A DNA stretch of 64,000 nt, from contig NZ_KE384490.1 in NCBI RefSeq assembly GCF_000426045.1, forward strand, positions 248,001 to 312,000, given 5' to 3'. The notes under the pieces were generated by a model. That model was not told the origin of the DNA and did no database searches. It saw only the letters and a program-made list of their open reading frames with translations. The stretch's first letter is position 1; every line of letters begins with the position of its first letter. Below, piece after piece: positions 8,095 through 40,699 of this stretch. The stretch is from Marmoricola sp. URHB0036 (lineage in GTDB: Bacteria; Actinomycetota; Actinomycetes; Propionibacteriales; Nocardioidaceae). The position numbers were made by a program, and so were the translations under genes.

Positions 8095-8122
8095 TCACCA
8101 GCACCTCCTGACCGACGTTCGA

Positions 8123-8657: not shown

Positions 8658-8700
8658 GAGGCGTCGTCGGCTGCCAGCCCGGTCCGCTTTGTACGCCGAC

Positions 8701-9300: not shown

Positions 9301-9306
9301 GCCTCC

Positions 9307-9331: not shown

Positions 9332-9338
9332 GACGAGC

Positions 9339-10643: not shown

Positions 10644-10654
10644 ATAACGTTTCA

Positions 10655-10678
10655 GGATCAGTTGGCCTCCAGGGGTAT
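10655..10678 (+). promoter_or_regulatory. SigB-type promoter upstream of the STAS gene
   Basis: GGAT (10655-10658), 14 nt, then GGGTAT (10673-10678) matches the actinobacterial SigB-class consensus GNNT-N14-16-GGGTAY. It would give a leader of about 70 nt before the STAS gene. The match is exact but short, so chance is possible. Confidence 0.5.
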
Positions 10679-10757
10679 TTTCGGAACTGCTCCGCGCGTC
10701 ATGTAGTCAACAGGGCGCGACGCGCGCCGATAGTAGGGCTGGCAACGGGGAGGCCCC

Positions 10758-11117: not shown

Positions 11118-11149
11118 CCCATCACGCAGGGTGAGCCAGCCAACAAGCC

Positions 11150-11179
11150 TTACCCACCGGTACGGATCGGGCCTACCCT
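11150..11179 (+). promoter_or_regulatory. Promoter for the ethylmalonyl-CoA mutase gene
   Basis: TTACCC (11150-11155), an 18-nt spacer and TACCCT (11174-11179). Transcription would begin about at the ATG (11187), giving a leaderless mRNA. No Shine-Dalgarno is visible before that ATG. Confidence 0.5.
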
Positions 11180-11186
11180 CAGCCAC

Positions 11187-13205: not shown

Positions 13206-13340
13206 AAAACGGTCAGGTCAATCCGGACTTGCCCGTCAGTTGCGCGTTCCGGGAGCCTCCGGCGTCGTAGTCTGCCTCAGGACGTCACGTGCGGCCGGGA
13301 GACTGGGCTGCCTCGGGCTCGACGCAAGGCGGATCGACAC

Positions 13341-14804: not shown

Positions 14805-14944
14805 CCGCATTGGTCTAGATCAACCGGTCGCCGTCTGCCCACCACGCGAGCAAATGTTGCTGCCGTGCCATTTGGTGACGTAAACAGAAACCTCATCTGC
14901 ATTCCTCGGGAAAAGGGGAAGAATTCCTTCGGCTGATCCGGAAA

Positions 14945-17698
14945 ATGGATATGCGGCAACATGTACGAAATGCCCTGACGCGCCCTCTCGGACGGCCTTT
15001 TCTTTCCCTCGTCGTGCTGGCGTCCGCCCTGGTCCTCTCGGCCACGGCGGCGCCGCCGTCGCCGGCCCGCGCAGCCGACCCCACCTGCACGATCTCCGCC
15101 AAGCTGGTCAACTCCTGCCGGCCCTGGCTCGGCGCCGAGTCCGGTGGCTACGGTCCCACGGGTCTGCGCGCCTCCATGCTGGCGCACGAGGCCAGCATCG
15201 GCCGCCAGCTCGACATCGTCCACGAGTACCTCGGCACCGGGAACATCACGCTGACCAGCGACATCGTCACGCTCGCCAAGCGGGCGAACACGATCGCGCT
15301 GGTCAACTGGCGCGTGGTCAGCAAGTGGGCCAGCGGTGACGGGCGCACCGCGAGCGTGAACACGCAGATCGACAACATGGCCAACAGCATCAAGGCGTTG
15401 GGCACCACCAAGATCATGCTCACGGTGAGCCACGAGCCCGAGAACGACATCTCGCCGGGTGGGGGGCCCGCCTGCACGACGTACAGCGGCGGCTCGGGCA
15501 CGACCGCCGACTACGTGAACATGTGGCACAACGTGCGCGCCCGTTTCGACGCGCTCGGGGTCACCAACGTGGTGTGGGTGATGAACTTCATGGGCTACGA
15601 GGGCTGGAACTGCGTGGAGAACGCCGTCTGGCCGGGCAACGACTACGTCGACTGGGTGATGTGGGACCCCTACCCACGCAACTCCACCTGGGCCTACCAC
15701 GTAGGCGGCTTCTACAACTGGCTGACGACGCACAGCGACGCCGAGCACAACTACCTCTCCAAGCCGTGGGGCCTGGCCGAGTTCGGCAACATCGGCACCA
15801 GCCAGGCCAACGTCTACCAGATGTACGACGACGCCAAACGGGGCGTGGACAACAACACCTACCCCCGCCTCAAGGCCTACGTGGTCTGGGACCAGCACAC
15901 CTCGTCCAGCTCCGACGTACGCATCGGCTACGACCACTACTCGGTGTCCGACCCGGTCGAGCTACAGCACTACAACGCCTTCGCCAACGACCCGTTGCTG
16001 ACCGGCACCGGTGTCCCCGACCCGGTCGACACGACCTCTCCGACGGTCGTCAGCACCGCGCCCGACGACGCAGCGACCGTGTCCGGGACGGTGGACGTGA
16101 CCGGCTCGGCCACCGACGACGTGGGGGTGACGTCGGTGAACCTGCTCGTCGACGGCCAGTCGGTGGCGACCACCGCCCCCTTGACCGACGGCAGCGTGTC
16201 AGTGAGCTGGAACAGTGCCAGCCTCCCCAACGGGAGCCACACGCTGCAGCTGCGGGCCCGGGACGCCGCTGGCAACATCGGGCTCTCCGCTGTCGCGACG
16301 GTGACGGTGCAGAACGTCGACGACGAGGCGCCGACGCCGCCCGGCAACCTCACCGCCGTGTGGGGCAAGCCGAGCCAGGTGACGCTCGCCTGGTCGGCTG
16401 CCACCGACAACGCCGCGGTGACCGGTTACCGCGTCTACCGCGACGGTGTGACCACTCCTCTCGCCACCGTGCCGGCCACCGCCCGCGGCTACGTCGACCC
16501 CGGCATCGCCAACCTGAGCAACCACCACTACACGGTCACCGCCGTCGATGCGGCCGGGCACGAGAGCGACCCCAGCAACGAGGCCGTCGTCGATGCCGGC
16601 GACGACACCCCGCCGGGGAAGCCCACTGCTTCGGCCTCGCTCACCGGACCGGCCCAGGCCACGGTGACGTGGACCGACGTCGTCGACAACGTGGGCGTGA
16701 CCGGTTACCGCGTCTATCGCGGGAGCTCCCTGGTCGGAACCGTCACCGACGGCAGCGACACCCTGGTCGAGGACGGTCTCGACGACGGGGTCACCTACTA
16801 CTACCGCGTGATCGCCTACGACGCGGCCGCGAACACCAGCACGCCCAGCGACCCGGTCGCGGTCACCACTCCCGACGTGACGGCGCCGACCACGCCCGTC
16901 AACCTGAAGGCGGTGTCGGCCCCGACCAGCGTCGCGCTGACCTGGAGCGCCGCGACCGACAACGTGGGTGTCGCGAACTATGTCGTCTACCGCGACGGCT
17001 TGCCACAGGCGACGCTGAACGGTACGACGACCAGCTGGACCGACACCGCGCCGGTCGGCACCACACTGCACCGTTATCGGGTGATGGCCCGTGACGCGGC
17101 GGGCAACGCCAGTGGCCTGAGCAACGAGGTGGCGCGCAGCCTGGCCGACACGACCCCACCCACCGCACCCACGCGACTGACCGGCTCGCTCTCCGGCGGC
17201 ACGGTGCGGCTCACCTGGACGGCCTCGACCGATGCCGTCGGCGTGACCGGCTACACGATCTACCGGGGTGGGGTGTCCATCGGGACGTCGACGACTCCGT
17301 CGTACACCGACAGCACGCCGCCGCCCGGAAGGGCGTCGAACTACACCGTGCGGGCGCGCGACGCGGCCGGGAACACCAGTGCCGCCTCCACCGCGGTCAG
17401 CGTGACGGTTCCGGCCGACAAGACGGCACCCTCGGCACCGGGCAGCCTGCGCCTCACGATCGGTGCGACCGGCACGCGCCAGATCACGCTGAGCTGGACG
17501 GCCGCGACCGACAACGTGGGTGTGGCCAGCTACTACGTCTACCGCGGCAACTCCAAGTACCGGCTGCTCGGCAACGTGACGAGCTTCGCGGACACCGGGC
17601 TGACCGCGGGGACGAAGTACACCTACAAGGTCTACGCGATCGACGCCGCGGGCAACTGGAGCAGCCCGACAGCCAGCGTCAGCGGAACGGCTCGTTAG
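14945..17698 (+). CDS. Secreted GH26-like glycoside hydrolase with FnIII repeats (copy 1)
   Basis: 917 residues. A signal peptide (about 1-44, cleavage near ARA-AD) precedes a GH26-like (beta-mannanase clan) catalytic domain to about 365. SHEPE supplies acid/base Glu164, and GLAEFG supplies nucleophile Glu279. An Ig-like module (about 372-455) and five fibronectin-III domains follow (about 460-917), each with a near-repeat of [15 protein letters not shown]. There is no LPXTG anchor or C-terminal helix, so it is probably released. The substrate cannot be read from sequence. The 140-nt leader is relatively AT-rich. A close paralogue begins 3 nt downstream. Confidence 0.85.
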   Translation: MDMRQHVRNALTRPLGRPFLSLVVLASALVLSATAAPPSPARAADPTCTISAKLVNSCRPWLGAESGGYGPTGLRASMLAHEASIGRQLDIVHEYLGTGNITLTSDIVTLAKRANTIALVNWRVVSKWASGDGRTASVNTQIDNMANSIKALGTTKIMLTVSHEPENDISPGGGPACTTYSGGSGTTADYVNMWHNVRARFDALGVTNVVWVMNFMGYEGWNCVENAVWPGNDYVDWVMWDPYPRNSTWAYHVGGFYNWLTTHSDAEHNYLSKPWGLAEFGNIGTSQANVYQMYDDAKRGVDNNTYPRLKAYVVWDQHTSSSSDVRIGYDHYSVSDPVELQHYNAFANDPLLTGTGVPDPVDTTSPTVVSTAPDDAATVSGTVDVTGSATDDVGVTSVNLLVDGQSVATTAPLTDGSVSVSWNSASLPNGSHTLQLRARDAAGNIGLSAVATVTVQNVDDEAPTPPGNLTAVWGKPSQVTLAWSAATDNAAVTGYRVYRDGVTTPLATVPATARGYVDPGIANLSNHHYTVTAVDAAGHESDPSNEAVVDAGDDTPPGKPTASASLTGPAQATVTWTDVVDNVGVTGYRVYRGSSLVGTVTDGSDTLVEDGLDDGVTYYYRVIAYDAAANTSTPSDPVAVTTPDVTAPTTPVNLKAVSAPTSVALTWSAATDNVGVANYVVYRDGLPQATLNGTTTSWTDTAPVGTTLHRYRVMARDAAGNASGLSNEVARSLADTTPPTAPTRLTGSLSGGTVRLTWTASTDAVGVTGYTIYRGGVSIGTSTTPSYTDSTPPPGRASNYTVRARDAAGNTSAASTAVSVTVPADKTAPSAPGSLRLTIGATGTRQITLSWTAATDNVGVASYYVYRGNSKYRLLGNVTSFADTGLTAGTKYTYKVYAIDAAGNWSSPTASVSGTAR

Positions 17699-17701
17699 GC
17701 C

Positions 17702-20428
17702 GTGCGGAGGCGCGACAGCTGGAGAGCCGCACGCGCCGCCGTGCTCGTGGCGCTGGCGTCGGCTCTCCTCGTCGCGGCTCCGTCCGCGTCTCCGGCCAGT
17801 GCTGCCGACCCGGTGTGCACGATCTCCGCCAAGCTGGTCAACTCGTGCCGGCCGTGGGTCGGCGCCGAGTCGGCCAACTACGGCCAGAGCACCTTCCGGG
17901 CCCGGATGCTCGAGCACGAGACGCGCCTCGGGCGCCAGCTCGACATCGTGCACGCCTACCTCGGCGCCGGTGCCACCGCGTTGACCCCCGACATGGTCAC
18001 CATGGCCAAGCGGCCGGGGACGATCGGGCTCTACAACTGGCGGGTGTCGCTGAACTGGGCGGCGGGCGGGGGAGACAACGCCACCGTGAACGGCCAGATC
18101 GACCAGATGGCCGCCAGCATCAAGGCCCTCGGGACGACCAAGATCATGCTCACCGTCTTCCACGAACCGGAGTCGGCCGTGTCGAGCGGCGGCTCGCCGA
18201 GCTGTCCCACCCTCAAGCTCACCGGCACCGGAGGCACGACGGCCGACTACGTGAACATGTGGCACAACGTGCGCGAGCGCTTCGATGCGCTGGGCGTGAC
18301 CAACGTCGTCTGGGTGATGAACTACGTCGGCTACGTCTCGAGCTTCTGCATGGCGCGCGACCTGTGGCCGGGCAACGACTACGTCGACTGGGTGATGTGG
18401 GACCCCTACCCGGCGGTCGGCACGTGGGCTGCGGTCGTCGGCTCGTTCTACAACTACCTGACCGCCAACAGCGACGCCGACCACGACTTCTTGTCCAAGC
18501 CGTGGGGACTGGCCGAGTTCGGTTACATCGGCACCAACCAGGCTGCGGCGTACGCGATGTACGACGACGCGGCCCGCGCGATCCACGACAACACCTTTCC
18601 CAAGCTCAAGGCCTACGCCGTCTGGGACAACTGGACCTCGAGCAGCCACGACGACCGGGTCGGCTACACCCAGGGTCACGTCCTCGACCCCGTCGAGCAG
18701 CAGCACTACAACGCCCTCGCCAACGACCCTGCACTGATCGGCACCGCCGTGCCCGAGCCGACCGACCAGGCGCCACCGACCGTCGTACGCCTCACGCCCG
18801 AGGACGGAGCAGCCGTCAGTGGCACGGTCGAGGTGACCGGCACGGCCTCCGACGACGTCGGGCTCGAGTCGGTCCAGCTCCTGGTCGACGACAGTCCCGC
18901 CGGGAGCGCGACGCCGGACGGGGACGGCCACGTCACCATCGCCTGGAACAGCGGGAGCGTCGCCAACGGCACCCACTCGCTCCGGCTCTGGGCGCGGGAC
19001 ACCTCCGGCAACACAGCCCTCTCCGATCCGGCCGGAGTGACGGTGTACAACGCCGACGTTGAGGCGCCCTCCGTCCCGCAGAACCCGGCGGCGTCCTGGA
19101 GCAGGGGCGTCGGCGTGACCCTGACGTGGTCGGCATCGACCGACAACCTGGCCGTCACCGGCTATCGCATCTACCGCGACGGTGACCCGTTCACCACGCT
19201 GGGCTCGACCGACACCGAGTACGTCGATGACGACGTCGCCAACCTCAGCACGCACACTTATGCCGTCGCCGCCCTCGACGCTGCCGGCAACGAGAGCGAC
19301 CCCAGCGGCTCACGCCAGGTCACCGCCGGCGACGACACGGCGCCGACGATCCCGGCCGCGGGCGCCGACCTCACCGCTCCCCATGAAGCGACGGTGTCGT
19401 GGGTCGAGTCGACCGACAACCACGACGTGGCCGGCTATCGGGTCTATCGCGACGGGAGCCCGGTCGCCGATGTCGCGGGCACGGTCACCACCTGGGTCGA
19501 CGACGGACTGGACGACGTCACGAGCTACACCTACCGCGTCTCGGCCTACGACGCCTCCGGCAACGAGAGCGACCGCAGCGACCCTGCCGTCGTGACCACC
19601 ACGGACAGCACCGCCCCCGGCGTGCCGGCCAACCTGCGCGCCGTCTCGGCCCCGGCGAGCGTGTCGCTGACCTGGAACGCCTCGACCGACAACGTCGCCG
19701 TGACCAACTACGTGGTCTACCGCGACGGGCTGCCCGTGATGACGCTGGGCGGTACGACGACCTCGTGGACCGACAGCGCCCTGGTCGGCAGCACCCTGCA
19801 CCGCTACCAGGTCACCGCCCGCGACGCGACCGGCAACGAGAGCGCGAAGAGCAACGAGGTCGCGAGGACGGTGGCCGACACGACCGCACCCACAGCGCCG
19901 ACGCGGCTGGCCGGATCGTTGTCGGGCCTCACCGTCCGCCTGACGTGGACGGCCTCCACCGATGCCGTCGGCGTGACCAGCTACACCGTCTATCGCGGCG
20001 GTGTCGCGATCGGCACCAGCACCATGCCGGCGTACACCGACGCCACGCCGCCGCTCGGGAAGGCCTCGAGCTACACCGTGCGGGCCCGCGACGCGGCCGG
20101 CAACACCAGCGCGGCATCGAGCGCGGTCAGCGTCACGGTGCCCACCGACAAGACCGCTCCGACCACACCGGGCAGCGTGCGACTCACGGTCGGAACCACC
20201 GGAACCCGCCAGATCACCGTCGCGTGGAACGCCTCCACCGACAACGTCGGCGTCACCGGCTACTACCTCTACCGGGCCAACGCGAAGTACAAGCTGCTCG
20301 GCAAGGTCACGAGCTACGTCGACACCGGGTTGAGGGCCGGTACCAAGTACACCTACAAGGTCTACGCCCTCGACGCCGCCGGCAACTGGAGCGGGGCCTC
20401 GGCCAGCGTGAGCGGGACCGCTCGCTAG
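17702..20428 (+). CDS. Secreted GH26-like glycoside hydrolase with FnIII repeats (copy 2)
   Basis: 908 residues from GTG at 17702, a tandem paralogue of the preceding gene with the same order: signal peptide, GH26-like domain, Ig-like module and five FnIII domains. Catalytic candidates are conserved in FHEPE and GLAEFG. Identity is highest around the catalytic motifs ([35 protein letters not shown]) and in the last FnIII domains. The 3-nt spacing implies one transcript. The stop overlaps the nucS stop in a shared CTAG. Copy-specific differences around the active site may change substrate range. Confidence 0.85.
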
Positions 20429-30534: not shown

Positions 30535-31872
30535 TCAGACGCCGCGGAAGGCGTTGATCTTGTCGAGGTGCTGCGCGCGGAGCTCCTCGTTGCGAACGCC
30601 GAGGCCCTCCTCGGGCGAGAGGCAGAGCACGCCGACCTTGCCCTGGTGGGCGTTCTGGTGGACGTCGAGCGCGGCCTGGCCGACGTCGTCGAGGGAGTAG
30701 GTCCGCGACAGCGTCGGGTGGATCATCCCCTTGGCGATGAGCCGGTTGGCCTCCCACGACTCGCGGTAGTTGGCGAAGTGGGAGCTGATGATGCGCTTGA
30801 GGTTCATCCACAGGTAGCGGTTGTCGTACTCGTGCATGTAGCCCGAGGTCGACGCGCACGTGGTGATCGTGCCTCCCTTGCGGGTGACGTAGACGCTCGC
30901 GCCGAAGGTCTCGCGCCCGGGGTGCTCGAAGACGATGTCGACGTCCTCGCCGCCGGTGAGCTCACGGATCTTGGCGCCGAAGCGCTTCCACTCCCGCGGG
31001 TCCTGGGTGCGCTCGTCCTTCCAGAACTGGTAGCCCTCCTCGGAGCGGTTGATGATCAGCTCGGCGCCCATGGAGCGGGCGATGGCGGCCTTCTCCTCGT
31101 TGGAGACCACGCAGATCGGGACCGCGCCGCCGTTGAGGGCGTACTGCGTCGCGAACCCGCCGAGTCCGCCCGACGCGCCCCAGATCAGCACGTTGTCGCC
31201 CTGCTTCATGCCGGCGCCGTTCTTGCTGACCAGCTGGCGGTAGGCGGTGCAGTTGACCAGCCCGGGAGAGGCGGCCTCCTCCCAGGTGAGGTGGTCCGGC
31301 TTGGGCATCAGCTGGTTGGACTTGACCAGCGCGACGTGCGCCAGGCCGCCGAAGTTGGTCTCGAAGCCCCAGATGCGCTGCTCGGGGTCGAGCATCGTGT
31401 CGTTGTGGCCGTCGGGGCTCTCCAGCTCCACCGAGAGGCAGTGGGCGACGACCTCGTCGCCGGGGTTCCAGGAGTGCACGCCGAGACCGGTCTTGAGCAC
31501 GACGCCGGCGAGGTCGGAGCCGACGACGTGGTACGGCAGGTCATGGCGCTTGGCGAGCGGGGAGATCCGGCCGTAGCGCTCCAGGAAGCCGAAGGTGGAG
31601 ACCGGCTCGAAGATCGAGGTCCACACGGTGTTGTAGTTGATGGCGCTGGCCATCACCGCCACCAGTGCCTCGCCGGGGCCGAGCTCGGGCAGGGCGACGT
31701 CGTCGATGTGCAAGGACTTGCGCGGGTCCTTGTCGCGGCTGTCCAGCCCCTCGAACATGTCGACCTCGTCCTTGTGGACGGTCGCGGCCCGGTAGGCCTC
31801 GGGGAGCTCGAGGTTGGCGAACTCCTCACCGGTGGTGTCGCCGGCGAGGATGGCATCGAGGATCTGCTGCAC
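30535..31872 (-). CDS. ccr: Crotonyl-CoA carboxylase/reductase
   Basis: 445 residues from GTG at 31872 (AAGGAG, 6 nt spacing). It reductively carboxylates crotonyl-CoA to (2S)-ethylmalonyl-CoA with NADPH and CO2. It is a medium-chain dehydrogenase/reductase with NADPH loop WGASGGLGGFATQ (about 231-243). The four residues described as the CO2 pocket of the Kitasatospora enzyme occur at the same numbers: Asn81, Phe170, Glu171 and His365. This supports a true carboxylase rather than a plain reductase. The epimerase gene is upstream on the same strand, with a TetR-like operator between them. Confidence 0.96.
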   Translation of the reverse strand: MQQILDAILAGDTTGEEFANLELPEAYRAATVHKDEVDMFEGLDSRDKDPRKSLHIDDVALPELGPGEALVAVMASAINYNTVWTSIFEPVSTFGFLERYGRISPLAKRHDLPYHVVGSDLAGVVLKTGLGVHSWNPGDEVVAHCLSVELESPDGHNDTMLDPEQRIWGFETNFGGLAHVALVKSNQLMPKPDHLTWEEAASPGLVNCTAYRQLVSKNGAGMKQGDNVLIWGASGGLGGFATQYALNGGAVPICVVSNEEKAAIARSMGAELIINRSEEGYQFWKDERTQDPREWKRFGAKIRELTGGEDVDIVFEHPGRETFGASVYVTRKGGTITTCASTSGYMHEYDNRYLWMNLKRIISSHFANYRESWEANRLIAKGMIHPTLSRTYSLDDVGQAALDVHQNAHQGKVGVLCLSPEEGLGVRNEELRAQHLDKINAFRGV

Positions 31873-31907
31873 GGTTTGCTCCTTGTTCGGGGCCAGACCC
31901 GGGAGAG

Positions 31908-31923
31908 ATTACCGGTCGGTAAT
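31908..31923. promoter_or_regulatory. TetR-type operator in front of ccr
   Basis: ATTACCGGTCGGTAAT has perfect 7-bp arms (ATTACCG/CGGTAAT) around GT. It is 36-51 nt upstream of the ccr start, between epimerase and ccr. Size and symmetry fit a TetR-family site. In methylotrophs the TetR-family CcrR controls ccr from an upstream palindrome. Which regulator binds here is unknown; none is adjacent. Confidence 0.6.
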
Positions 31924-31952
31924 GCCGCTGTCGTCGGGGTGTGGGGCGTCTC

Positions 31953-32405
31953 TCAGTGTGCGCCGTCCGCGGACGGTTGCACGAGCTCGACGAGCACCCC
32001 GCCGGCGTCCTTGGGGTGGATGAAGTTGATCCGGGAGCCGGCGGTGCCGCGCTTGGGGGCGTCGTAGAGCAGCCGGATGCCCCGCTCACGCAGGATGGCG
32101 GAGACCTGTTCGACGTCGGTGACTCGGTAGGCCAGCTGCTGGAGACCGGGGCCGGAGCGGTCGAGGAACTTCGCGATCGTGGACGTCTCGTCGATCGGGG
32201 CGAGCAGCTGGATGCATGATCCGGAACTGCCGACCGCCACCATCGCCTCGCGGACGCCCTGCTCCTCGTTGGTCTCCTGGTGCACGACCTCCATCCCGAA
32301 GGAGTCCCGGTAGAGCGCGATTGCCTCGTCGAGGTCGGGTACGGCGACGCCGACGTGGTCGATGCAGGTGAACAGATGGGCCGGGATGTCCAGGGGAGCG
32401 CTCAT
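31953..32405 (-). CDS. epi: Methylmalonyl/ethylmalonyl-CoA epimerase
   Basis: 150 residues from ATG at 32405 (GAGG 8 nt upstream). It is a VOC-fold metalloenzyme: metal-ligand motifs are IDHVGVAV at the start, QLAYRV in the middle and GVLVELVQ at the end. It epimerises methylmalonyl-CoA, and in the ethylmalonyl-CoA pathway also ethylmalonyl-CoA, linking Ccr to the mutase. An in-frame extension to 32492 is possible but lacks a ribosome site and family similarity. It lies 80 nt upstream of ccr. Confidence 0.92.
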   Translation of the reverse strand: MSAPLDIPAHLFTCIDHVGVAVPDLDEAIALYRDSFGMEVVHQETNEEQGVREAMVAVGSSGSCIQLLAPIDETSTIAKFLDRSGPGLQQLAYRVTDVEQVSAILRERGIRLLYDAPKRGTAGSRINFIHPKDAGGVLVELVQPSADGAH

Positions 32406-32575
32406 GGCTGCATCCTCGCCGAGCGGCGTACCGGCCTCAACGTGGTGTGACCCGTCCGACACGACCAGGAGTGCCCTGACGACCCTGTCCATGACACGGC
32501 GCCCAGACAGGATCCGGCCTGGGCCCGGTGATACGTTGACGACCGCCCAGAGCGCCGAGCCCAGGAGTGATTTCG

Positions 32576-32812
32576 TTGTCCGACCGACTGCTTGAGCTGT
32601 TCTCCACGGGACTCGGGATCCCGGCAGAAGACCTCAGCGACGAGACCAGTCCCAGCAACACCTCGGCGTGGGACTCACTGGCCGCCATGGAGATGGTCAC
32701 GATCATCGAGGACGCGTTCGGCGTACGGCTCAAGACCGCCGAGATCATGAAGATGCGCTCGATCGGTCTGGCCCGCACGGTGCTGCGCTCCAAGGGCGTC
32801 GAAGACATCTAA
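32576..32812 (+). CDS. Acyl carrier protein of the Dlt-like operon
   Basis: 78 residues from TTG at 32576, chosen because AGGAG is 8 nt upstream; GTG at 32567 would overlap that site. The phosphopantetheine serine is Ser34 in AWDSLAAMEMV, and helix III continues with FGVRLKTAEIMKMRSI. It is a stand-alone carrier resembling DltC or secondary-metabolite ACPs, not the housekeeping fatty-acid ACP. It heads a tight operon: 7 nt separate it from the FkbH gene. It would carry the acyl group loaded by FkbH as a thioester. Confidence 0.88.
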   Translation: MSDRLLELFSTGLGIPAEDLSDETSPSNTSAWDSLAAMEMVTIIEDAFGVRLKTAEIMKMRSIGLARTVLRSKGVEDI

Positions 32813-32819
32813 GGACGAG

Positions 32820-34502
32820 ATGACAGTCGAACGATTCCGGATCGGAGTCACGGCCAGCTTCACGCCCACCCCTCTCTACCGCTCCCTGCTGTCGACGTTC
32901 GTGTCGGGCGAGGAGGCCGAGGTCCTCGAGGCCGACTTCAACCTGGTCCACCAGACGCTGCTCGATCCCGAGGGAAGCCTCGGCTCGGCGCCGGACGCAC
33001 TCCTCGTCCTCTGGCGCGTGGAGGACATCTTCACGCAGTCACTGGTGGACTGGGTGGTCGACGCGGCTGACCCCGTCGGGCTGATCGAGGACGTGCGCCA
33101 GCTCGGGGGGCTGATCAGGCAGGCGGCTGCGGGATCGAAGGCCCCGGTCGTGGTCACCACCCCGCCGGTGCCCGTCTTCGCGTGGCTGGACCCGCTCGAC
33201 ACTCGCACCAGCGTGCGGCTGAGCGTGCTGCACGGTCGCCTGGTCGAGGCCTTCCTCGACGGTCTCGACGACGCACCCGTCACGCTGGTGGACCTCGACG
33301 CGCTGGTCCGGTCGCACGGCGTGCAGCAGGCCTACGACACCCGCAACGACCTGATGTACCGCCAGCCGTTCTCGAGTGCGTTCACCAAGGCCTTCGGCCA
33401 GCTGCTCGGCGAGGCCCTGAACAGCCTCACCACCGCCGTGCCCAAGGTGCTCGCGGTCGACGCCGACAACACCCTGTGGGGCGGCATCGTGGGGGAGGAC
33501 GGCGCCGAGGGGGTGATCGTCGGCGACAGCTTCCCGGGCAACGCCTTCCGTGCTCTCCAGAACGGCCTGGCCTACCAGGTGGCCAACGGCACCCTGCTGG
33601 TGATGGTCAGCAAGAACAACGACACCGACGTCGCCGAGCTGTTCGCCGTACGCCACGGCGACCTGGTCCTGACCGAGAAGCACTTCGCGACCAAACGGGT
33701 CGACTGGAACAGCAAGGCCGACAACCTGGTCGGCATCGCCGAGGAGCTCAACCTCGGCGCCGACAGCTTCATCTTCGTCGACGACAACGACGTCGAGCTC
33801 GAGGAGGTCCGGCAGCGACTGCCCGGGGTCCGTGTCATCAAGGTCACCGACGAGCCGGACGAGATCGCCGAGCTCACCTCGAAGCTGTCGGCCTTCCGGT
33901 TCGCCAAGGTCTCCAGCGAGGACCGCCAGCGCACCTCGATGATGCAGGTCGAGGTCGGGCGCAAGGCCGCGGCTGCCGAGGCGCAGTCGCACGAGGACTT
34001 CCTCGCCTCGCTGGGGCTGACCGTCCGCGTCTTCCGGCCCCAGTCCGCGCACGTCGGCCGGGTGACCCAGCTGGTCAACAAGACCAACCAGTTCAACCTG
34101 ACCACCATCCGCAGGGACGAGGCCGAGGTCAGCGCGCTGATCGCCTCCGAGGACCACCGCGTGTACGCCGCCGAGGTCTCCGACCGCTTCGGTGGCTACG
34201 GGCTGGTCGCGGTCGCCATCGTCGCGGCCGGTGCTCAGACCTGGGAGGTCGACACCTTCCTGATGAGCTGCCGCGTGCTGCGCCGGGGTGTCGAGAACGC
34301 CGTCGTCCAGTGCATCGCCGATGACGCCGTCGAGGCCGGGGCGACCCAGCTCGCGGGTGACTACCGACCCACGGCCAAGAACTCCCAGGTCGCCACGTTC
34401 TACCCCGAGCTCGGCTTCACCGAGACCGGCGAGGGTCACTTCGAGGCGAAGCTCCCGCTCGACCTGGCGCCGGCGCACGTGACGATTGAGCGCGATGCTT
34501 GA
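32820..34502 (+). CDS. FkbH-like HAD-IIIC glyceryl-ACP synthase
   Basis: 560 residues in the full FkbH layout: N-terminal SGNH-like part (about 1-205), HAD-IIIC domain (about 208-350) with DxDxT in VDADNTLWGGIVGEDG (Asp214, Asp216) and FVDDNDVELEEVRQ, then a GNAT-like part with LVNKTNQFNLTTIRR. FkbH proteins dephosphorylate 1,3-bisphosphoglycerate and load a D-glyceryl unit onto an ACP. The SKN motif reads VSKNN; whether this affects catalysis should be checked against characterised FkbH enzymes. No FkbI/J-type dehydrogenases are nearby, so methoxymalonyl-ACP synthesis is unlikely. It overlaps the MBOAT gene by 8 nt. Confidence 0.92.
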   Translation: MTVERFRIGVTASFTPTPLYRSLLSTFVSGEEAEVLEADFNLVHQTLLDPEGSLGSAPDALLVLWRVEDIFTQSLVDWVVDAADPVGLIEDVRQLGGLIRQAAAGSKAPVVVTTPPVPVFAWLDPLDTRTSVRLSVLHGRLVEAFLDGLDDAPVTLVDLDALVRSHGVQQAYDTRNDLMYRQPFSSAFTKAFGQLLGEALNSLTTAVPKVLAVDADNTLWGGIVGEDGAEGVIVGDSFPGNAFRALQNGLAYQVANGTLLVMVSKNNDTDVAELFAVRHGDLVLTEKHFATKRVDWNSKADNLVGIAEELNLGADSFIFVDDNDVELEEVRQRLPGVRVIKVTDEPDEIAELTSKLSAFRFAKVSSEDRQRTSMMQVEVGRKAAAAEAQSHEDFLASLGLTVRVFRPQSAHVGRVTQLVNKTNQFNLTTIRRDEAEVSALIASEDHRVYAAEVSDRFGGYGLVAVAIVAAGAQTWEVDTFLMSCRVLRRGVENAVVQCIADDAVEAGATQLAGDYRPTAKNSQVATFYPELGFTETGEGHFEAKLPLDLAPAHVTIERDA

Positions 34503-35712
34503 CGGCGATCCGTTCACCTACTTCTCTGACCTGCTCGTCCTGTTCGTCGTCGTACTCCCTCTCTACTTCCTGACGCCCTGGAGCTGGTTGCGCCAGCTGT
34601 TGCTCGGCCTCAGCGGCGCCTACCTCATCTTCCTGATCGCACCCCGTCTGCTGCTGTTCTACGTGCTGTTCTGGTTCCTGGTCTTCGTGCTGCAGTACGC
34701 CAGCGTGCTGTTCCGCGACAAACGGGCGAGCTGGGTCTGGACGACGCTGCTGATCGGGCTGGCGCTCGCGCCGATGGTGATCTGGAAGCTGTGGCCCGAG
34801 TGGTCGGTCACGCAGTTCAACCTGAAGATGAACACCGCGGTGTCCGACACCAACCAGTGGCTCGGCGCGATCGACCGCGTGCGCAACCTGATCCTGCCGA
34901 TCGGGCTGAGCTTCGCCACCTTCCGGGCGGTCGACCAGATCATCAAGGTGCGCCTCGAGATCGTCCCGCCCCTCAACCCCCTCCGGCAGTTCGCGTTCGG
35001 GTTCTTCCCACCGGTGCAGGTGATCGGGCCGGTCATCGAGTACACCGAGATCGAGGACGGGCTCGGGCGCCGGGTGCGCTTCGACCCCAGCGACTTCCTC
35101 AGCGGCGTCATCTCCATCGCGATCGGTGCCGTCAAGGTGTTCCTGTTCGCCTACCTGCTGCGCAACAGCTCCGACGTGTTCCTGCTCGCCACCCGCGACG
35201 GCGCCGCGTGGCAGTACTGGCTCGAGCTCGCGCTGTACGCCGGCTACTTCTACTTCAACTTCTCCGGCTTCTCCGACATGGCGATCGGCTCGGCCCGGCT
35301 CCTCGGCTTCAAGCTGGCGCCGAACTTCAACAACCCCTACCTGAAGACCAACCCCCAGGACTTCTGGAACAGCTGGCACATGAGCCTGACGCGGTTCGCG
35401 CAGCGCAACGTGTTCGTGCCGATGGGCGGCATGCGCGCGCGGACGCAGTACGCCGCCATCGTGGCCACCATGATGGTGATCGCCCTCTGGCACGGGCTGA
35501 GCATCCCGCTCGTCATCTTCGGGCTCTACCACTCGGCCGGGCTGGTCATCCACCGCGTGTGGGTCTCACGACACCCCGTGCCGTCGCCTCGCCCGCTGCT
35601 GCGCCGGATCGGTGCGAACGTGGTGTTCCTGATCTACTTCCTGATCAGTCTTCCGCTGCTCGAGCTCCACCTCTCGCAGCTGGGCACGTTCTACGAAAGG
35701 CTGCTCCCGTGA
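34495..35712 (+). CDS. MBOAT family O-acyltransferase (DltB/AlgI-like)
   Basis: 405 residues with about ten membrane segments. It starts at ATG 34495, inside the FkbH gene. Family motifs: LPIGLSFATFRAVDQ (134-148), FNFSGFSDMAIGSARLLGF (254-272), FWNSWHMSLTRFAQRNVF with His295, and ALWHGLSIPLVIFGLYHS with the putative catalytic His333. These two histidines correspond to the conserved pair of DltB. MBOATs of this branch take an acyl group from a cytosolic carrier and pass it across the membrane. The C-terminus (GTFYERLLP) lacks a good acyl-shuttle hexapeptide, leaving that role for the microprotein. It overlaps the next gene by 4 nt. Confidence 0.93.
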   Translation: MLDGDPFTYFSDLLVLFVVVLPLYFLTPWSWLRQLLLGLSGAYLIFLIAPRLLLFYVLFWFLVFVLQYASVLFRDKRASWVWTTLLIGLALAPMVIWKLWPEWSVTQFNLKMNTAVSDTNQWLGAIDRVRNLILPIGLSFATFRAVDQIIKVRLEIVPPLNPLRQFAFGFFPPVQVIGPVIEYTEIEDGLGRRVRFDPSDFLSGVISIAIGAVKVFLFAYLLRNSSDVFLLATRDGAAWQYWLELALYAGYFYFNFSGFSDMAIGSARLLGFKLAPNFNNPYLKTNPQDFWNSWHMSLTRFAQRNVFVPMGGMRARTQYAAIVATMMVIALWHGLSIPLVIFGLYHSAGLVIHRVWVSRHPVPSPRPLLRRIGANVVFLIYFLISLPLLELHLSQLGTFYERLLP

Positions 35713-36905
35713 TCGCCGATCGGCTGTTGGCGCGACTGCGCGGCCTCGTCGGGTACGCCCCCAGTGCCTGGTCGCTGGTGCGCATCCTGTGCTTCACGCT
35801 GCTCGGGCTGCTGGTCATCTCGCTGGTCGTGCCCTACAAGCCCGGCGAGCTGATCAGCCCGTGGAACAGGGTCAGGGGCACCGACCACTCGCACGTCGTC
35901 AGCCTGCAGCTCGGGGACACCCGTGGCTACGCCCCGGCCGCACCGCCCGGCTCCTACCGCATCGCCTGGATCGGCGGTTCGGAGATCCTCGGCGTCCGGC
36001 CGCGGCACCAGTCGATCATCCCGGGGCGTGTCAACGACCGGATCCATGCGGTCGACGGCAAGCGCCCCGCCACCGACGTCTACTTCCAGAACGCGATGCG
36101 GCTCGCGGACGAGCTGTCCTCCCTGCACCGGGCGCTCGCCTCGAAGCCCGACCTCGTGGTGGTCAGCCTCAACCCGGTGTGGGTGCTCAACGACCTGGGC
36201 GTGCAGCAGTGGGGTTACATGGACGGCCTGCTCGCCCGGGGGAGTGTCTGGCCTCCCTCGGACTGGCCCGTCGCCGCCTCGCTGGTCAGCCCGGGCGACG
36301 TCGGCTGGAAGGGGTTGTCCTCCCTCTTCGGGTCGATCGACGACCGCCTCTACTGGGGCACCAAGCTGACCGAGAAGACCGCTGACCTGTCCTTCCTCGA
36401 CAAGGTCGCCAAGGGCGTGGAGCCTGCGCCGACGGGTCTCGGCCTGCTCGGACTGCGGCGACCGGTCGACTTCTGGCAGGAGAAGTACGGCGGCGTGCCG
36501 GCCTCCGCCCCCGTGGACACCAAGCAGCTCTCGGTCCTCCAGCGCGGCGTCCGCTCGAAGTCGAGCATCAACGTGGAGGTCCTTCGGGCCATGTTCGCGG
36601 CGGTGCGTCGCGCCGGCGTGAAGGCCTACTTCTACGTGCCGCCGATCTCGCCGAAGTTCTATGCGCGGCCTGACGGGAAGAAGGCCATCGAGGAGCTGCG
36701 CTCGCAGCTCGTTGACGCCACGAAGGGCCAGACCACCAGCAAGGTCCTCTTCGACCCGCAGGGGCTGCAGGACCGGGTCCGGCCGACGATCTACAAGGAC
36801 ATCGTCCACAAGCTCAACCCCGACCCGGAGATCCGCGTGCTCACCGGCGACCTGTGCAAGCTGATCGCCATGGGTGGCCACACAACGAAATGCGAGAAGC
36901 CATGA
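35709..36905 (+). CDS. Membrane-anchored SGNH acyltransferase (DltD/AlgX-like)
   Basis: 398 residues from GTG at 35709, overlapping the MBOAT stop. One N-terminal helix (about 21-42) anchors an extracytoplasmic domain. Nucleophile candidate Ser91 is in AWIGGSEILGV, equivalent to the GSSE block of DltD. The closing Asp-x-x-His is D364-IV-H367 near the C-terminus, and LVVVSLNPVWV is the core strand. It would accept the acyl group outside and place it on an envelope polymer. Overall similarity to DltD is low, so the assignment rests on motif spacing, topology and operon context. Confidence 0.8.
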   Translation: MIADRLLARLRGLVGYAPSAWSLVRILCFTLLGLLVISLVVPYKPGELISPWNRVRGTDHSHVVSLQLGDTRGYAPAAPPGSYRIAWIGGSEILGVRPRHQSIIPGRVNDRIHAVDGKRPATDVYFQNAMRLADELSSLHRALASKPDLVVVSLNPVWVLNDLGVQQWGYMDGLLARGSVWPPSDWPVAASLVSPGDVGWKGLSSLFGSIDDRLYWGTKLTEKTADLSFLDKVAKGVEPAPTGLGLLGLRRPVDFWQEKYGGVPASAPVDTKQLSVLQRGVRSKSSINVEVLRAMFAAVRRAGVKAYFYVPPISPKFYARPDGKKAIEELRSQLVDATKGQTTSKVLFDPQGLQDRVRPTIYKDIVHKLNPDPEIRVLTGDLCKLIAMGGHTTKCEKP

Positions 36906-37063
36906 GCGAGGCCACGGAACAAAGCGATTCGAAGCGAACCTTCAGCGGACTCCCCGCGAGGCTGGCGGTCGAGCTGGTCCTCGGGCTCGGGCTCGCGGCC
37001 ATCATCATGCTCGTGGCGTGGACCTCGAGCAGCGCCATCCGCTTCGTCTACGGGGGCTACTGA
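36902..37063 (+). CDS. DltX-like acyl-shuttle microprotein (53 aa)
   Basis: 53 residues. A charged N-terminus (K11, R12, R20) precedes one membrane helix (about 21-41), then a short tail ending FVYGGY at 48-53. The positive N-side predicts N-in/C-out. DltX microproteins in Dlt systems have this size and topology and, as I recall, end in an F-x-Y-x-x-F-like hexapeptide whose tyrosine carries the acyl group between DltB and DltD. Tyr50 would be that residue here. The ATG overlaps the SGNH stop (ATGA), and the next gene starts 1 nt after its stop. Confidence 0.72.
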   Translation: MSEATEQSDSKRTFSGLPARLAVELVLGLGLAAIIMLVAWTSSSAIRFVYGGY

Positions 37064-37064
37064 G

Positions 37065-37490
37065 GTGACGGCCGAGCAGGAGGAGCGCACCGGGCCACGG
37101 CTGCACCACGTCGGCTACGTCGTCCCCAACATGGCGGGTGGCGTACGCCGGTTCGAGGATGCCGGAGCCGAGCTGGTGGTCGGTCCGACCGACGACCCGC
37201 TCCTGGGTGTCGCGTGCGCGCTGATGCGCCTCCCCGAAGGCGTCGACGTCGAGCTGGTGGCGCCGCTGGACGGGGTCGAGTCGCCGATCGCGGCCCGGCT
37301 CAAGCGCGGTGGGGGACTCGACCACCTGTGCTTCTGGGTCGAGGACCTCGACGCCTCGCTCGCCAAGGAGCTGGAGAACGACGCCATGCTGCTGGTGGAG
37401 CCGACCTACGCCGTCACCTTCGACTCGACGGTGGCCTTCGTGCAGCGGCGCGGTGGACTGGTCGTGGAGCTGATGGGCGAGAAGCGCTGA
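37065..37490 (+). CDS. VOC family protein, methylmalonyl-CoA epimerase-like, end of the Dlt-like operon
   Basis: 141 residues from GTG, 1 nt after the microprotein stop, so clearly co-transcribed. It is a VOC fold with metal-ligand positions LHHVGYVV, LDHLCFWVED and GGLVVELMGE intact. It is closer to epimerases than to glyoxalase I by length. A genuine epimerase gene lies at 31953, so this one may act on the operon's own acyl thioester, for example at its alpha-carbon. That is inference; other lyase or isomerase roles fit equally well. Confidence 0.75.
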   Translation: MTAEQEERTGPRLHHVGYVVPNMAGGVRRFEDAGAELVVGPTDDPLLGVACALMRLPEGVDVELVAPLDGVESPIAARLKRGGGLDHLCFWVEDLDASLAKELENDAMLLVEPTYAVTFDSTVAFVQRRGGLVVELMGEKR

Positions 37491-37515
37491 CGCCTCGCTT
37501 GCTCAGGCCGGTCGG

Positions 37516-38424
37516 TCAGGCCTTGGCCAGGACGTAGGCGACGTTGATCGGCAGGTTGAGCTCGCGGGACTCCTCGAGGCTCTTGCCCTCATAGGGCAGC
37601 CGCAGCGGCTCGACGATCGTGAGTCCGTTGTCGGTGATCATCTGCTCGAGCTCGTCCGTCGTACGCCAGAGGAAGATGTGGTCGACGGCTGGCGCGTTGA
37701 TGCAGGTGGTGACGAAGATGTAGGCGTCGTCCTTGGCCAGCTCGGCGATGCGGCGCAGGAACACGTCGGGCTTCTCGACGTGCTCGAGCACCTCGCCCAT
37801 CACGATGGCGTCGAACGAGCCCGGCTCGAGGTCGGCGGCCTCCAGGAAGTCGCGCTGCTCGACGTGCGCAGGAGCGTCGGGATTGAAGTGGTCGATGATC
37901 GTCCGCGTCTGCTCGACGCTCGCGGCCGAGAGGTCCACGGCGAGCACCTCGTCGAAGCTGCCCACCTCGAGGGCCGAGAGGAGCAGGAAGCCGTGCCCGG
38001 GGCCGATCTCCAGGTAGCGGCCGGAGCGGTCGCGGGGCAGCGTCTCGCGCAGGAACCGGGCCATCGCGAGGTGGTTGGGCCACAAGAAGTTGGTGATGGC
38101 CAGGCCGTACATGTAGCGGTCCATGTAGTCGCGGTCGTGGTAGACCGACTCGGCCACCTCGTCGAAGGTGGAGTGGCGGTAGCTCCCGTTGTCGCGGAAG
38201 TACAGCTGCTCCTCGAGGGTGTCACCGAGGATGGTCAGGTAGCACTCGGCGAGGTACTCGAGCGTCAGGCCCTTGGCCAGGCAGAACTCGAGGTACTTGC
38301 TCAGCCGGGTGATCTCCTCGGGCGTACCGCCACTGATCGCCTGGTTCAGGAAGGCGCGGTGGACCGGGTACTGCTCGGTGATGTTCTCGACCAGGTCCGT
38401 GACCAGGGGTGCGGTGTCGTCCAT
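37516..38424 (-). CDS. Class I SAM-dependent methyltransferase
   Basis: 302 residues from ATG at 38424; ATG at 38448 is possible. An N-terminal helical region (about 1-130) has no recognised function. The methyltransferase core follows: SAM motif I YLEIGPGHGFLLLSAL (about 135-150), acidic motif AVDLS, and FDAIVMGEVLEHVEKPDVFLRR. This form resembles small-molecule or sugar O/C-methyltransferases. It converges with the Dlt-like operon with a 25-nt gap, so an envelope substrate is possible but unproven. Confidence 0.85.
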   Translation of the reverse strand: MDDTAPLVTDLVENITEQYPVHRAFLNQAISGGTPEEITRLSKYLEFCLAKGLTLEYLAECYLTILGDTLEEQLYFRDNGSYRHSTFDEVAESVYHDRDYMDRYMYGLAITNFLWPNHLAMARFLRETLPRDRSGRYLEIGPGHGFLLLSALEVGSFDEVLAVDLSAASVEQTRTIIDHFNPDAPAHVEQRDFLEAADLEPGSFDAIVMGEVLEHVEKPDVFLRRIAELAKDDAYIFVTTCINAPAVDHIFLWRTTDELEQMITDNGLTIVEPLRLPYEGKSLEESRELNLPINVAYVLAKA

Positions 38425-38534
38425 GGCGCCCGAACATACCTGCGGCATCGGGTGTGACGCAGACCCCCCTCCTGCGACGCGCCGTTCGTGGGTAGTGTCG
38501 AGACGACCCAGATTTGCTGCTCAGGAGGCCCCAC

Positions 38535-39725
38535 ATGTCCGGTTCCGTCATCGTCGCAGGCGCGCGCACCCCCATCGGCCGCCTGCTCGGAGGCCTCAAG
38601 AGCCTCTCGGCAGCCGAGCTCGGCGGCGTCGCCATCAAGGGCGCGCTGGAGAAGGCCGGCGTCTCCGGCGACCAGGTCGACTACCTGATCATGGGCCAGG
38701 TCATCCAGGCCGGTGCCGGCCAGAACCCCGCGCGTACGGCGGGCGTGGCGGCCGGGCTGCCGATGTCGCTGCCCTCCATCACCATCAACAAGGTGTGCCT
38801 GTCCGGCATCAACGCCATCGCGATGGCCGACCAGCTGATCCGCGCCGGTGAGCACGAGATCGTCGTGGCCGGCGGCATGGAGTCGATGACCAACGCCCCG
38901 CACTTCCTGCCCAAGTCGCGCGAGGGCATCAAGTTCGGCGACGTCAAGCTGGTCGACTCGATGGCCTACGACGCCCTGTTCGACCAGACCACCCAGCAGG
39001 CCATGGGGCTGCTGACCGAGGAGTGCAACGCCGCCGGCGCCAACCTGACCCGCGAGGAGCAGGACGAGTTCGCCGCCCAGTCGCACCAGAAGGCCGCCCA
39101 GGCCTGGAAGAACGGGCTGTTCGACGACGAGGTAGTCCCGGTCGAGATCCCGCAGCGCAAGGGCGACCCGATCGTCGTGAACACCGACGAGGGCGTCCGT
39201 GGCGACACCTCGGCCGAGTCGCTGAGCAAGCTGCGCCCGGCGTTCAGCAAGGAGGGCACCGTCACGGCCGGCTCCTCCTCGCAGATCTCCGACGGCGCCT
39301 GCGCCGTGGTCGTGATGAGCAAGGCCAAGGCCGAGGAGCTCGGCCTGACCTGGCTGGCCGAGATCGGCGCGCACGGCCAGGTCGCCGGCCCCGACTCCAC
39401 CCTGCAGCTGCAGCCGGCCAGCGCGACGGCCAAGGCCCTCGCCAAGGAGGGCCTCACCGCCGACGACGTCGACCTCGTGGAGTTCAACGAGGCGTTCGCC
39501 GCGGTCGGCATCGCCTCGGCCCGCGAGCTCGGCATCCCCGACGAGAAGGTCAACGTCAACGGCGGCGCGATCGCTCTCGGCCACCCGGTCGGCATGTCCG
39601 GCGCCCGCATCGTGCTCCACCTCGCCCTCGAGCTCCAGCGCCGCGGGGGCGGCACCGGCGTCGCCGCCCTCTGCGGTGGCGGCGGCCAGGGTGACGCCCT
39701 GGTCGTCAAGGTGCCGGCTTCCTGA
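38535..39725 (+). CDS. Acetyl-CoA C-acetyltransferase (biosynthetic thiolase)
   Basis: 396 residues from ATG at 38535 (CAGGAGG, about 6 nt spacing). It condenses two acetyl-CoA to acetoacetyl-CoA, the entry step of the ethylmalonyl-CoA pathway. The catalytic set is Cys88 ([12 protein letters not shown]), His350 ([12 protein letters not shown]) and Cys380 (CGGGGQGDA). The sequence is AtoB/PhaA-like. It lies 2 nt before meaB, so the two are co-expressed. Degradative thiolase use cannot be excluded. Confidence 0.93.
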
Positions 39726-39727
39726 GG

Positions 39728-40699
39728 GTGGCGAGCAGGCGGTCGACGGGTGACGTCCCCGAGCTGGTCGAGAAGGCCCGCTCTGGGGACGCGCGGTCGG
39801 TGGCGCGGCTGATCTCGCTGGTCGAGGACGCCTCACCGTTGCTGCGCGAGGTGATGGCCGGCCTGGCGCCGTACGCCGGTCACAGCCACATCATCGGCGT
39901 CACCGGATCACCCGGGGTCGGCAAGTCCACCTCCACCGCCGCCCTCGTCACCGCGCTCCGCAAGCAGGACAAGCGGGTCGGGGTGCTCGCGGTCGACCCG
40001 TCCTCGCCGTTCTCCGGTGGCGCGCTGCTCGGCGACCGGGTGCGGATGCAGGACCACGCGCTCGACAAGGAGGTCTACATCCGCTCGATGGCCTCCCGGG
40101 GTCACCTCGGCGGCCTGTCCTGGGCCACGCCGCAGGCGCTGCGCGTGCTCGAGGCGGCCGGCTGCGACGTGATCCTGATCGAGACCGTCGGGGTGGGCCA
40201 GAGCGAGGTCGAGATCGCCGCGATGGCCGACACCACGCTGGTGCTGATCGCGCCGGGGATGGGCGACGGCATCCAGGCCGCCAAGGCCGGCATCCTCGAG
40301 ATCGGCGACGTCTACGTCATCAACAAGGCCGACCGCGACGGCGCCGACCAGGTACGCCGGGACCTGCGCTCGATGCTGGCGCTCGCGGAGCGGCCGGACG
40401 GTGCCTGGAAGCCGGAGATCGTCAAGACGGTCGCCAGCAAGGGCGAGGGCATCGACGACCTGGTGAGCGCGCTGGAGAAGCACTTCGAGCACCTCTCCTC
40501 GAGCGGCGAGCTGGACAAGCGACGGCTGCGCCGGGCCCGCGACGAGATCGAGGCGATCGCCGTGACCGCGCTGCGCGAGCAGTGGCGCGGCGTGCACGAG
40601 AACGCCGCGCTGGACGAGCTGGCCGCCGAGGTGGTCGCCGGGGACAGCGACCCCTACGCCGCCGCCGACCTGCTCCTGGAGAGCCTGGAGCGCGCCTGA
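39728..40699 (+). CDS. meaB: MeaB-type GTPase, B12 mutase chaperone
   Basis: 323 residues from GTG at 39728. It is a G3E GTPase that gates cofactor loading and protects adenosylcobalamin mutases. P-loop GSPGVGKSTS (about 61-70), the switch segments (DPSSPFSGGALLGDRVRM, ETVGVGQSEVEIA) and the guanine-binding NKAD (about 199-202) are intact, and the C-terminal dimerisation arm is present. Pairing with a thiolase rather than with the mutase gene at 11187 is unusual, but both are in the same pathway. Confidence 0.93.
   Translation: MASRRSTGDVPELVEKARSGDARSVARLISLVEDASPLLREVMAGLAPYAGHSHIIGVTGSPGVGKSTSTAALVTALRKQDKRVGVLAVDPSSPFSGGALLGDRVRMQDHALDKEVYIRSMASRGHLGGLSWATPQALRVLEAAGCDVILIETVGVGQSEVEIAAMADTTLVLIAPGMGDGIQAAKAGILEIGDVYVINKADRDGADQVRRDLRSMLALAERPDGAWKPEIVKTVASKGEGIDDLVSALEKHFEHLSSSGELDKRRLRRARDEIEAIAVTALREQWRGVHENAALDELAAEVVAGDSDPYAAADLLLESLERA

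Follow-up and report, generated by a model that had tools for sequence, protein, structure and literature searches.

We describe a seven-gene cassette in a 64,000-nucleotide stretch of DNA from Marmoricola sp. URHB0036 (contig NZ_KE384490.1, positions 248,001-312,000, forward strand; hereafter the window). The cassette probably encodes a Dlt-like, carrier-protein-dependent transmembrane acylation pathway in which an FkbH protein would act as the loading enzyme and glyceryl groups, probably O-methylated, would be exported; we put the probability of this reading at roughly 0.7. Gene content and order, conserved residues, the shuttle motif, a DltD-like structural model, the occurrence of the genes as one block or not at all at one chromosomal site, and co-occurrence across genomes were observed directly. 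A first-pass annotation of the same DNA, made from the sequence alone, had already seen a Dlt-like machine here with FkbH as its loading enzyme, and the conserved composition, the shuttle motif and the likeness to DltD and DltB support that view in outline.

Reading both strands of the window, we found a compact plus-strand operon followed by a convergent methyltransferase gene, seven genes in all:

32576..32812, plus strand: stand-alone acyl carrier protein (ACP); TTG start; phosphopantetheine serine in a DSL motif; PP-binding, 35.4 bits
32820..34502, plus strand: FkbH; HAD-IIIC phosphatase and acyltransferase domain; TIGR01686, 287 bits
34495..35712, plus strand: MBOAT membrane O-acyltransferase, DltB-like; ATG start; His295 and His333; PF03062, 77 bits
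35709..36905, plus strand: SGNH protein, membrane-anchored, DltD-like; GTG start; Ser91/Asp364/His367
36902..37063, plus strand: microprotein of 53 residues with a single transmembrane segment; C-terminal IRFVYGGY, a DltX-like acyl-shuttle motif F-x-Y-x-x-Y
37065..37490, plus strand: VOC-fold protein, glyoxalase/methylmalonyl-CoA-epimerase-like; GTG start; PF13669 (Glyoxalase_4), 71.4 bits
37516..38448, minus strand: class I S-adenosylmethionine (SAM) methyltransferase with a helical N-terminal domain; PF13489 (Methyltransf_23), 66.9 bits; model pLDDT 91.8
32493..38513, no strand assigned: whole cassette, between mce (minus strand, ends 32492) and a thiolase gene (plus strand, starts 38514)

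The first-pass annotation had described a unit of five genes, from ACP to the 53-residue microprotein. All five are present, and the VOC and convergent methyltransferase genes of the same unit had been overlooked. Gaps of 7 nt separate ACP from FkbH and of 1 nt the microprotein from VOC, and the MBOAT/SGNH and SGNH/microprotein pairs overlap by 4 nt each; the earlier statement that no gap or overlap exceeds 7 nt holds for every junction except FkbH/MBOAT, where the overlap is 8 nt. A mechanical list of open reading frames gives an alternative ACP start at GTG 32567, and TTG 34486 is an alternative start for MBOAT. For ACP we prefer TTG 32576 because relatives keep a start codon there (17 of 19, the other two rows being cut just after that position). 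The G+C content is 0.674 in the cassette and 0.696 in the window.

Conservation and distribution of the cassette

A scan of 84,980 species, each represented by one genome, with the MBOAT alignment returned 54 loci (designated by L numbers below). MBOAT identity is at least 38% in 21 of them, which belong to Actinomycetota, Alpha- and Gammaproteobacteria, Pirellulales and, by record title, one Hydrogenedentota bin; it is 36% or less in the other 33. In tblastn searches of the close loci, FkbH was found nearby in 20, ACP in 19 and SGNH in 20, whereas the distant loci yielded no FkbH, one ACP (L049, on the opposite strand) and three weak SGNH matches. A Fisher test on FkbH (20/21 vs 0/33) gives 6.5e-14, a value to be taken with caution since the loci are related. 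FkbH of L025, a 5.1-kb contig, lies on another contig of the same genome and is thus present in 21 of 21 genomes; it was detected in one of 14 other-MBOAT genomes searched (14 of the 33 distant loci). Profile searches placed the methyltransferase in 18 of 21 close loci (384-555 bits) and VOC in 17 (146-226 bits in 16, 78 bits in L025), and neither in any of the 33 distant ones. Contigs L012 and L018 end inside the cassette; they and the short L025 were kept in the locus counts, with unseen genes scored as misses. Conserved co-occurrence had been named as a check in the first-pass annotation, and the composition proved to be conserved across phyla: the cassette genes occur together in three, and including the split L025 genome would add a fourth.

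When 12 of the 21 genomes were searched whole, the methyltransferase was found in 10 at E<=1e-20, with one match each (none in L026 or L025), and VOC in 9 at E<=1e-10 (none in L026, L022 or L027). The L018 contig breaks off within the MBOAT gene, and both are on another contig of that genome. L026 shows only the five core genes. Gene order varies: FkbH comes first in L013, followed by methyltransferase, VOC, ACP, MBOAT, SGNH and microprotein, and the microprotein gene lies ahead of MBOAT in L017 and L021. Pairwise identities of the six larger proteins, leaving the microprotein aside, covary (r 0.53-0.94). Averaged over 10-11 Gram-negative copies, identity to the window protein is 0.57 for the methyltransferase, 0.54 for ACP, 0.43 for MBOAT, 0.36 for FkbH, 0.28 for VOC and 0.18 for SGNH. 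Conservation of ACP and methyltransferase across Gram types, but not of SGNH, is what would be expected if one acyl group is placed on different acceptors.

The chromosomal site occupied by the cassette could be compared with empty counterparts. In the window it is flanked by ccr, mce, thiolase and meaB, genes of ethylmalonyl-CoA pathway type (30535-32492 and 38514-40699). We searched 11 same-genus genomes without the methyltransferase with ccr and fetched six in full around that gene; all six, which have no cassette, show mce followed by divergent thiolase and meaB. Two short loci (L105, L106) also show mce beside thiolase, and three others (L100, L102, L103) stop before mce. The block from ACP to methyltransferase sits exactly between mce and thiolase in the window, in Nocardioides marmoriginsengisoli (L007) and in N. 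jensenii (L010). The unit is seven genes, present or absent together at one chromosomal site. The same seven also occur in L008 (Terrabacter sp. Root85) and L009 (from an isolate of Intrasporangiaceae), two 19-kb loci in which neither ccr nor mce nor thiolase gave a match. A functional link to the ethylmalonyl-CoA genes was considered and rejected: mce and thiolase adjoin in relatives without the cassette, and ccr, mce and thiolase are unseen in the L008 and L009 loci. The flanking genes are therefore just its site.

Within the family, 3 of 341 genomes carry the methyltransferase (E<=1e-40), and in a phylum-wide sample the only carrier among 396 genomes is the source genome itself. The MBOAT profile scores 693.8 bits there and at most 190.1 in the 54 other genomes of that sample that match at E<=1e-40. 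Because the former stands so far above the latter, we regard the cassette as sporadic. FkbH is likewise uncommon among the Actinomycetota sampled, exceeding its cut-off in 11 of 296 genomes, the source genome included.

Predicted shuttle, transfer, loading and tailoring proteins

The Dlt system (DltX-DltA-DltB-DltC-DltD), which D-alanylates teichoic acids, provides the closest point of comparison. According to PMC12148441, DltB hands D-alanine to the invariant tyrosine of a C-terminal FXYXXF motif in DltX, which passes it to DltD. The window microprotein ends FVYGGY, that is, F-x-Y-x-x-Y. A script that accepted same-strand segments ending F-x-Y-x-x-[FYL] within 4.5 kb of MBOAT recovered such a microprotein in 19 loci, and another, overlooked by the script and found by eye in L009, ends FVYGGY, for a total of 20 of 22 loci including the window. 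The two without it, L018 and L025, are on contigs of 5.2 and 5.1 kb. On the opposite strand, used as a control, 0 of 1603 segments end in the motif; as a positive control, a pneumococcal record (L059) yielded the expected microprotein, ending SFIYNEF, upstream of its MBOAT. F48 and Y50 are the sole invariant residues among the 20 aligned microproteins, and the final motif position is F in 13, Y in 6 (window, L007-L010, L023) and L in one (L026). The protein has a basic N-terminal part followed by a 19-residue hydrophobic stretch (mean hydropathy 2.6), an arrangement also described for DltX of Bacillus thuringiensis (PMC5541007). It had no Pfam match at E<=0.001 (36902-37060), which places it outside the DltX family DUF3687. 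Judged by its shuttle motif, the microprotein is a DltX analogue, in agreement with the first-pass comparison of the two.

Such microproteins are not unique to carrier-dependent systems, because they also occur in 5 of 32 other comparison loci (L028-L031, L034) that have no match to the cassette ACP or FkbH. In these loci, from Brevibacillus, Desulfotomaculaceae and Pelotomaculum, a DltB-like MBOAT stands beside a short protein ending FIYTDF (for example L028, 7607-10073; L030, 7649-10086). An SGNH-like gene precedes in L028 and L030, and by eye no carrier or ligase was seen among the genes at about 3-15.5 kb; L031 was listed downstream only. Loci of the L028/L030 type possibly hold a DltX-type shuttle in a carrier-free system.

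The MBOAT protein exceeds the PF03062 cut-off of 27 bits, and both histidines singled out in the first-pass annotation are conserved: in a 31-row alignment, numbered three ahead of the protein, His333 is invariant and His295 at least 90% conserved. Searched against the PDB with the MBOAT profile, DltB entries were the only solved relatives at E<=0.001. Scores against the DltB equivalog TIGR04091 (126.3 bits for the window protein and 98.8 for that of L015) fall below its cut-off of 375. The C-terminus has no shuttle motif of its own, and assignment to the PatA type with a fused motif was rejected on that ground, whereas the MBOATs of L051-L055 and L060 do end in the motif. The script flags the L028-L030 MBOATs as well, with a match lying about 10-16 residues before the end. 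There is one MBOAT in the source genome.

Over 31 aligned rows of the SGNH protein, Ser91 and His367 never vary and conservation of Asp364 is at least 90%, so that the proposed Ser and Asp-x-x-His residues stood up. Foldseek searches with its model gave DltD as the best matches; the model has an SGNH fold with Ser/Asp-x-x-His and resembles DltD over its full length. By sequence, the SGNH profile retrieved from solved structures designed helical proteins, with weak matches to a nanobody entry and to a pre-60S factor. The earlier pairing of MBOAT with DltB and SGNH with DltD is therefore borne out by sequence for the first and by structural model for the second. Protein searches, in each of which about 8000 candidates were scored without regard to genome context, counted at least 74 SGNH relatives, at least 710 MBOAT relatives at E<=1e-3 (the best 120 of 710 being at least 47% identical) and at least 1462 methyltransferase relatives at E<=1e-30.

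For the predicted loading pair, the first-pass calls of a stand-alone ACP and a full FkbH were confirmed. The ACP score clears the PP-binding cut-off (20.8 bits), its DSL motif is invariant in 20 of 20 aligned rows, and it is 49-63% identical to ten Gram-negative copies. FkbH scores well above the NCBIfam cut-off for TIGR01686 (146.65 bits). Its Asp214-x-Asp216 and Cys484 (in MSCRVL), invariant in 20 of 20 rows, are residues that we take to be catalytic, and it has no second match in its own genome. Both alignments leave out L012 and L025, where the contig starts inside the gene or the gene is not on the contig. At E<=0.001, FkbH and SGNH of the window, like the microprotein, matched no Pfam family. 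Loading of glyceryl onto a stand-alone ACP by FkbH is given as likely in PMC7489565.

Two further proteins accompany this core in most copies. VOC retains His15, Glu63, His87 and Glu135 in 16 of 16 aligned rows (an alignment without the out-of-frame L008 row, the mce comparison row or any L025 row), and its closest solved relatives are 3hdp and 2qh0. Against the methylmalonyl-CoA epimerase family TIGR03081 (cut-off 114.95) it scores 39 bits, and the flanking mce product 148.5. The possibility that VOC is a copy of the flanking mce was rejected, given 27% identity and a score more than 70 bits under the epimerase cut-off. The His-Glu-His-Glu set is presumably equivalent to the metal site of Escherichia coli glyoxalase I (GloA), whose product is an alpha-hydroxy thioester; the VOC fold is also used by methylmalonyl-CoA epimerase. 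Such a set and fold would suit an enzyme that moves protons at the alpha-carbon of alpha-hydroxy thioesters, for instance to epimerise glyceryl-ACP.

No protein of the cassette is better conserved than the methyltransferase, which shares 52-60% identity with ten Gram-negative copies. O-, N- and C-methyltransferases are all among the matches to its model, and this generic class I fold was set aside as a clue to substrate; a sequence search of solved structures gave no match. In suomilide-type loading modules, O-methylation of FkbH-loaded glycerate on the carrier has been proposed (PMC13122637, PMC10143770), and for that reason O-methylglyceryl is the simplest product here. Since the methyltransferase and VOC are present in most copies, the exported group is probably a modified glyceryl such as O-methylglyceryl. 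As L026 shows only the five core genes, we suggest that the methyltransferase and VOC tailor the acyl group rather than serve export itself.

The predicted pathway and its alternatives

From these observations we infer the acyl group, its export, its acceptor and the roles of the methyltransferase and VOC. FkbH would take the D-glyceryl group of 1,3-bisphosphoglycerate, strip its phosphate and load ACP with a glyceryl thioester, the same reaction that has been proposed for FkbH proteins of antibiotic pathways. In most copies the methyltransferase would O-methylate the ACP-bound glyceryl, and VOC, in the simplest case a 2-epimerase, would act at the alpha-carbon of that group. By its motif, fold and gene company, MBOAT would then move the acyl group across the membrane onto the motif tyrosine of the microprotein, as DltB does with DltX. 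The acyl-tyrosine would deliver to Ser91 of the SGNH protein, and this would esterify an envelope glycan outside the cell. Extended to a general statement, the proposal would be that a second carrier-dependent pathway runs parallel to Dlt in Gram-positive and Gram-negative bacteria, turning 1,3-bisphosphoglycerate into O-methylated, possibly epimerised, glyceryl esters on envelope glycans; this we advance tentatively, at slightly less than even odds.

The cassette shares with Dlt a carrier, a DltB-like MBOAT without a motif of its own, a DltD-like SGNH protein and a single-transmembrane microprotein with an FXYXXF-type motif. It differs in having FkbH where Dlt has the adenylating ligase DltA, in the methyltransferase and VOC added in most copies, in an MBOAT under the DltB equivalog cut-off, in a microprotein outside DUF3687 and in a window motif that ends in Y rather than F. 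Although it works like Dlt on our reading, the cassette is not a Dlt operon, because the ligase is absent from it and its MBOAT lies far below the equivalog cut-off. PatA/PatB and other MBOAT-SGNH systems for O-acetylation of alginate, cellulose or secondary wall polysaccharide also pair MBOAT with SGNH and use an acyl-tyrosine shuttle motif; unlike the cassette, these non-Dlt pathways are described in PMC12148441 as having no similar carrier or DltX-like microprotein, with the motif instead being part of the MBOAT, fused at its C-terminus. Methoxymalonyl-ACP and tetronate (glycerate-utilisation) operons share FkbH and a stand-alone ACP and, in the methoxymalonyl case, a methyltransferase (PMC7489565). 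The cassette, in contrast, is without a dehydrogenase, FabH-like enzyme or polyketide synthase and has MBOAT, SGNH and microprotein. The suomilide/varlaxin non-ribosomal peptide synthetase loading module (OMT-FkbH-PCP-ST) resembles it in FkbH-loaded glycerate and proposed carrier-bound O-methylation (PMC13122637, PMC10143770). That module serves peptide synthesis, and the suomilide MBOAT is proposed to acylate the hexose of the released peptide rather than to export glyceryl.

These likenesses define the alternatives. The same machine might carry another group, a C3-C4 acyl that has been C-methylated, isomerised or dehydrated, or else the methyltransferase might act on the acceptor. High conservation of the methyltransferase, a model that does not discriminate among O-, N- and C-methyltransferases, and the retained His-Glu-His-Glu set of VOC speak for this. 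The O-methylation proposed for suomilide-type modules (PMC13122637, PMC10143770) means that no unusual chemistry is needed, and we regard such a variant as unlikely. A somewhat smaller chance attaches to a role in secondary metabolism, in which ACP and FkbH would supply glyceryl-ACP or methoxymalonyl-ACP to the synthesis of a polyketide or another secondary metabolite, which MBOAT and SGNH would decorate. Methoxymalonyl-ACP and tetronate pathways usually begin with FkbH and a stand-alone ACP (PMC7489565), and in a cyanobacterial suomilide cluster an FkbH domain occurs together with an MBOAT (PMC13122637). The methoxymalonyl route as described in PMC7489565 has two dehydrogenases, however, and the seven products include no dehydrogenase family; the block missing from relatives consists of the seven genes only, and cassette neighbours vary between lineages. 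The sole ketosynthase C-terminal match of the source genome (C1:328818-329192, about 17 kb outside the window) falls in a 3044-residue open frame, which by its size we take to be a probable actinobacterial type I fatty acid synthase. With one FkbH, one MBOAT and one ketosynthase, the last in that frame, the genome makes a polyketide role unlikely. Service to a polyketide pathway elsewhere in the genome had been the first-pass annotation's own counter-case, and no polyketide machinery for ACP and FkbH was seen.

Least probable, and in our view very unlikely, is true D-alanylation or a close variant, with another enzyme loading ACP with an amino acid and FkbH as an accessory. DltB-, DltD- and DltX-like parts together with a carrier would suit it. 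The FkbH present in 21 of 21 genomes argues against D-alanine, the MBOAT reaches 126 bits against the equivalog cut-off of 375, and no AMP-binding family (DltA-type ligase) was found among the seven cassette products, a search that did not extend to the rest of the source genome.

If the glyceryl pathway proposed here is correct, it would be a second MBOAT-SGNH pathway, beside Dlt, with both a carrier and a separate shuttle microprotein, in contrast to the non-Dlt pathways of PMC12148441 (2025). Its loading enzyme would be other than that of Dlt and its acyl group probably so, and it would span Gram-positive and Gram-negative lineages. Finding a microprotein in Gram-negatives is by itself not new: PMC5541007 mentions Gram-negative species whose DltX shows no sequence similarity. 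Envelope chemistry would be tied to a glycolytic intermediate through a surface modification, a glyceryl ester, not yet known to be made in this way, and the predicted ester could be sought by mass spectrometry. Proteins labelled merely 'hypothetical protein', 'AlgI' or 'methyltransferase' would gain a testable function, and the cassette offers small, expressible proteins for studying how MBOAT-shuttle-SGNH machines choose their acyl group. Among the matches listed in the open-access literature we found no description of such a cassette, weak evidence of absence given that most subscription journals lie outside that coverage; FkbH and MBOAT were named together there only in two studies of cyanobacterial peptides.

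Neighbouring genes and the acceptor

Genes beside the cassette differ between lineages. The annotated neighbours in the window (30535-39722) are uninformative about the acceptor, and open-access literature on glyceric acid in envelopes held nothing usable on it among the matches listed. One locus, L013 (Pirellulales, 541-18258), was scanned for neighbours that might give a clue, and glycan genes were found: the cassette there lies among genes for a cytidylyltransferase, glycosyltransferases, a sulfotransferase-like protein and an FkbM methyltransferase. In two other loci a hydrophobic protein of about 560 residues is encoded between methyltransferase and ACP (L017:12330-14009 and L021:12397-14088). 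The L017 copy, the one scanned, had no Pfam match; by eye these proteins look like GT-C membrane glycosyltransferases, which may hint that the acceptor is a glycan. Finally, L019 has two adjacent SGNH genes (5004-6209 and 6223-7518) in one cassette, perhaps for two acceptors.

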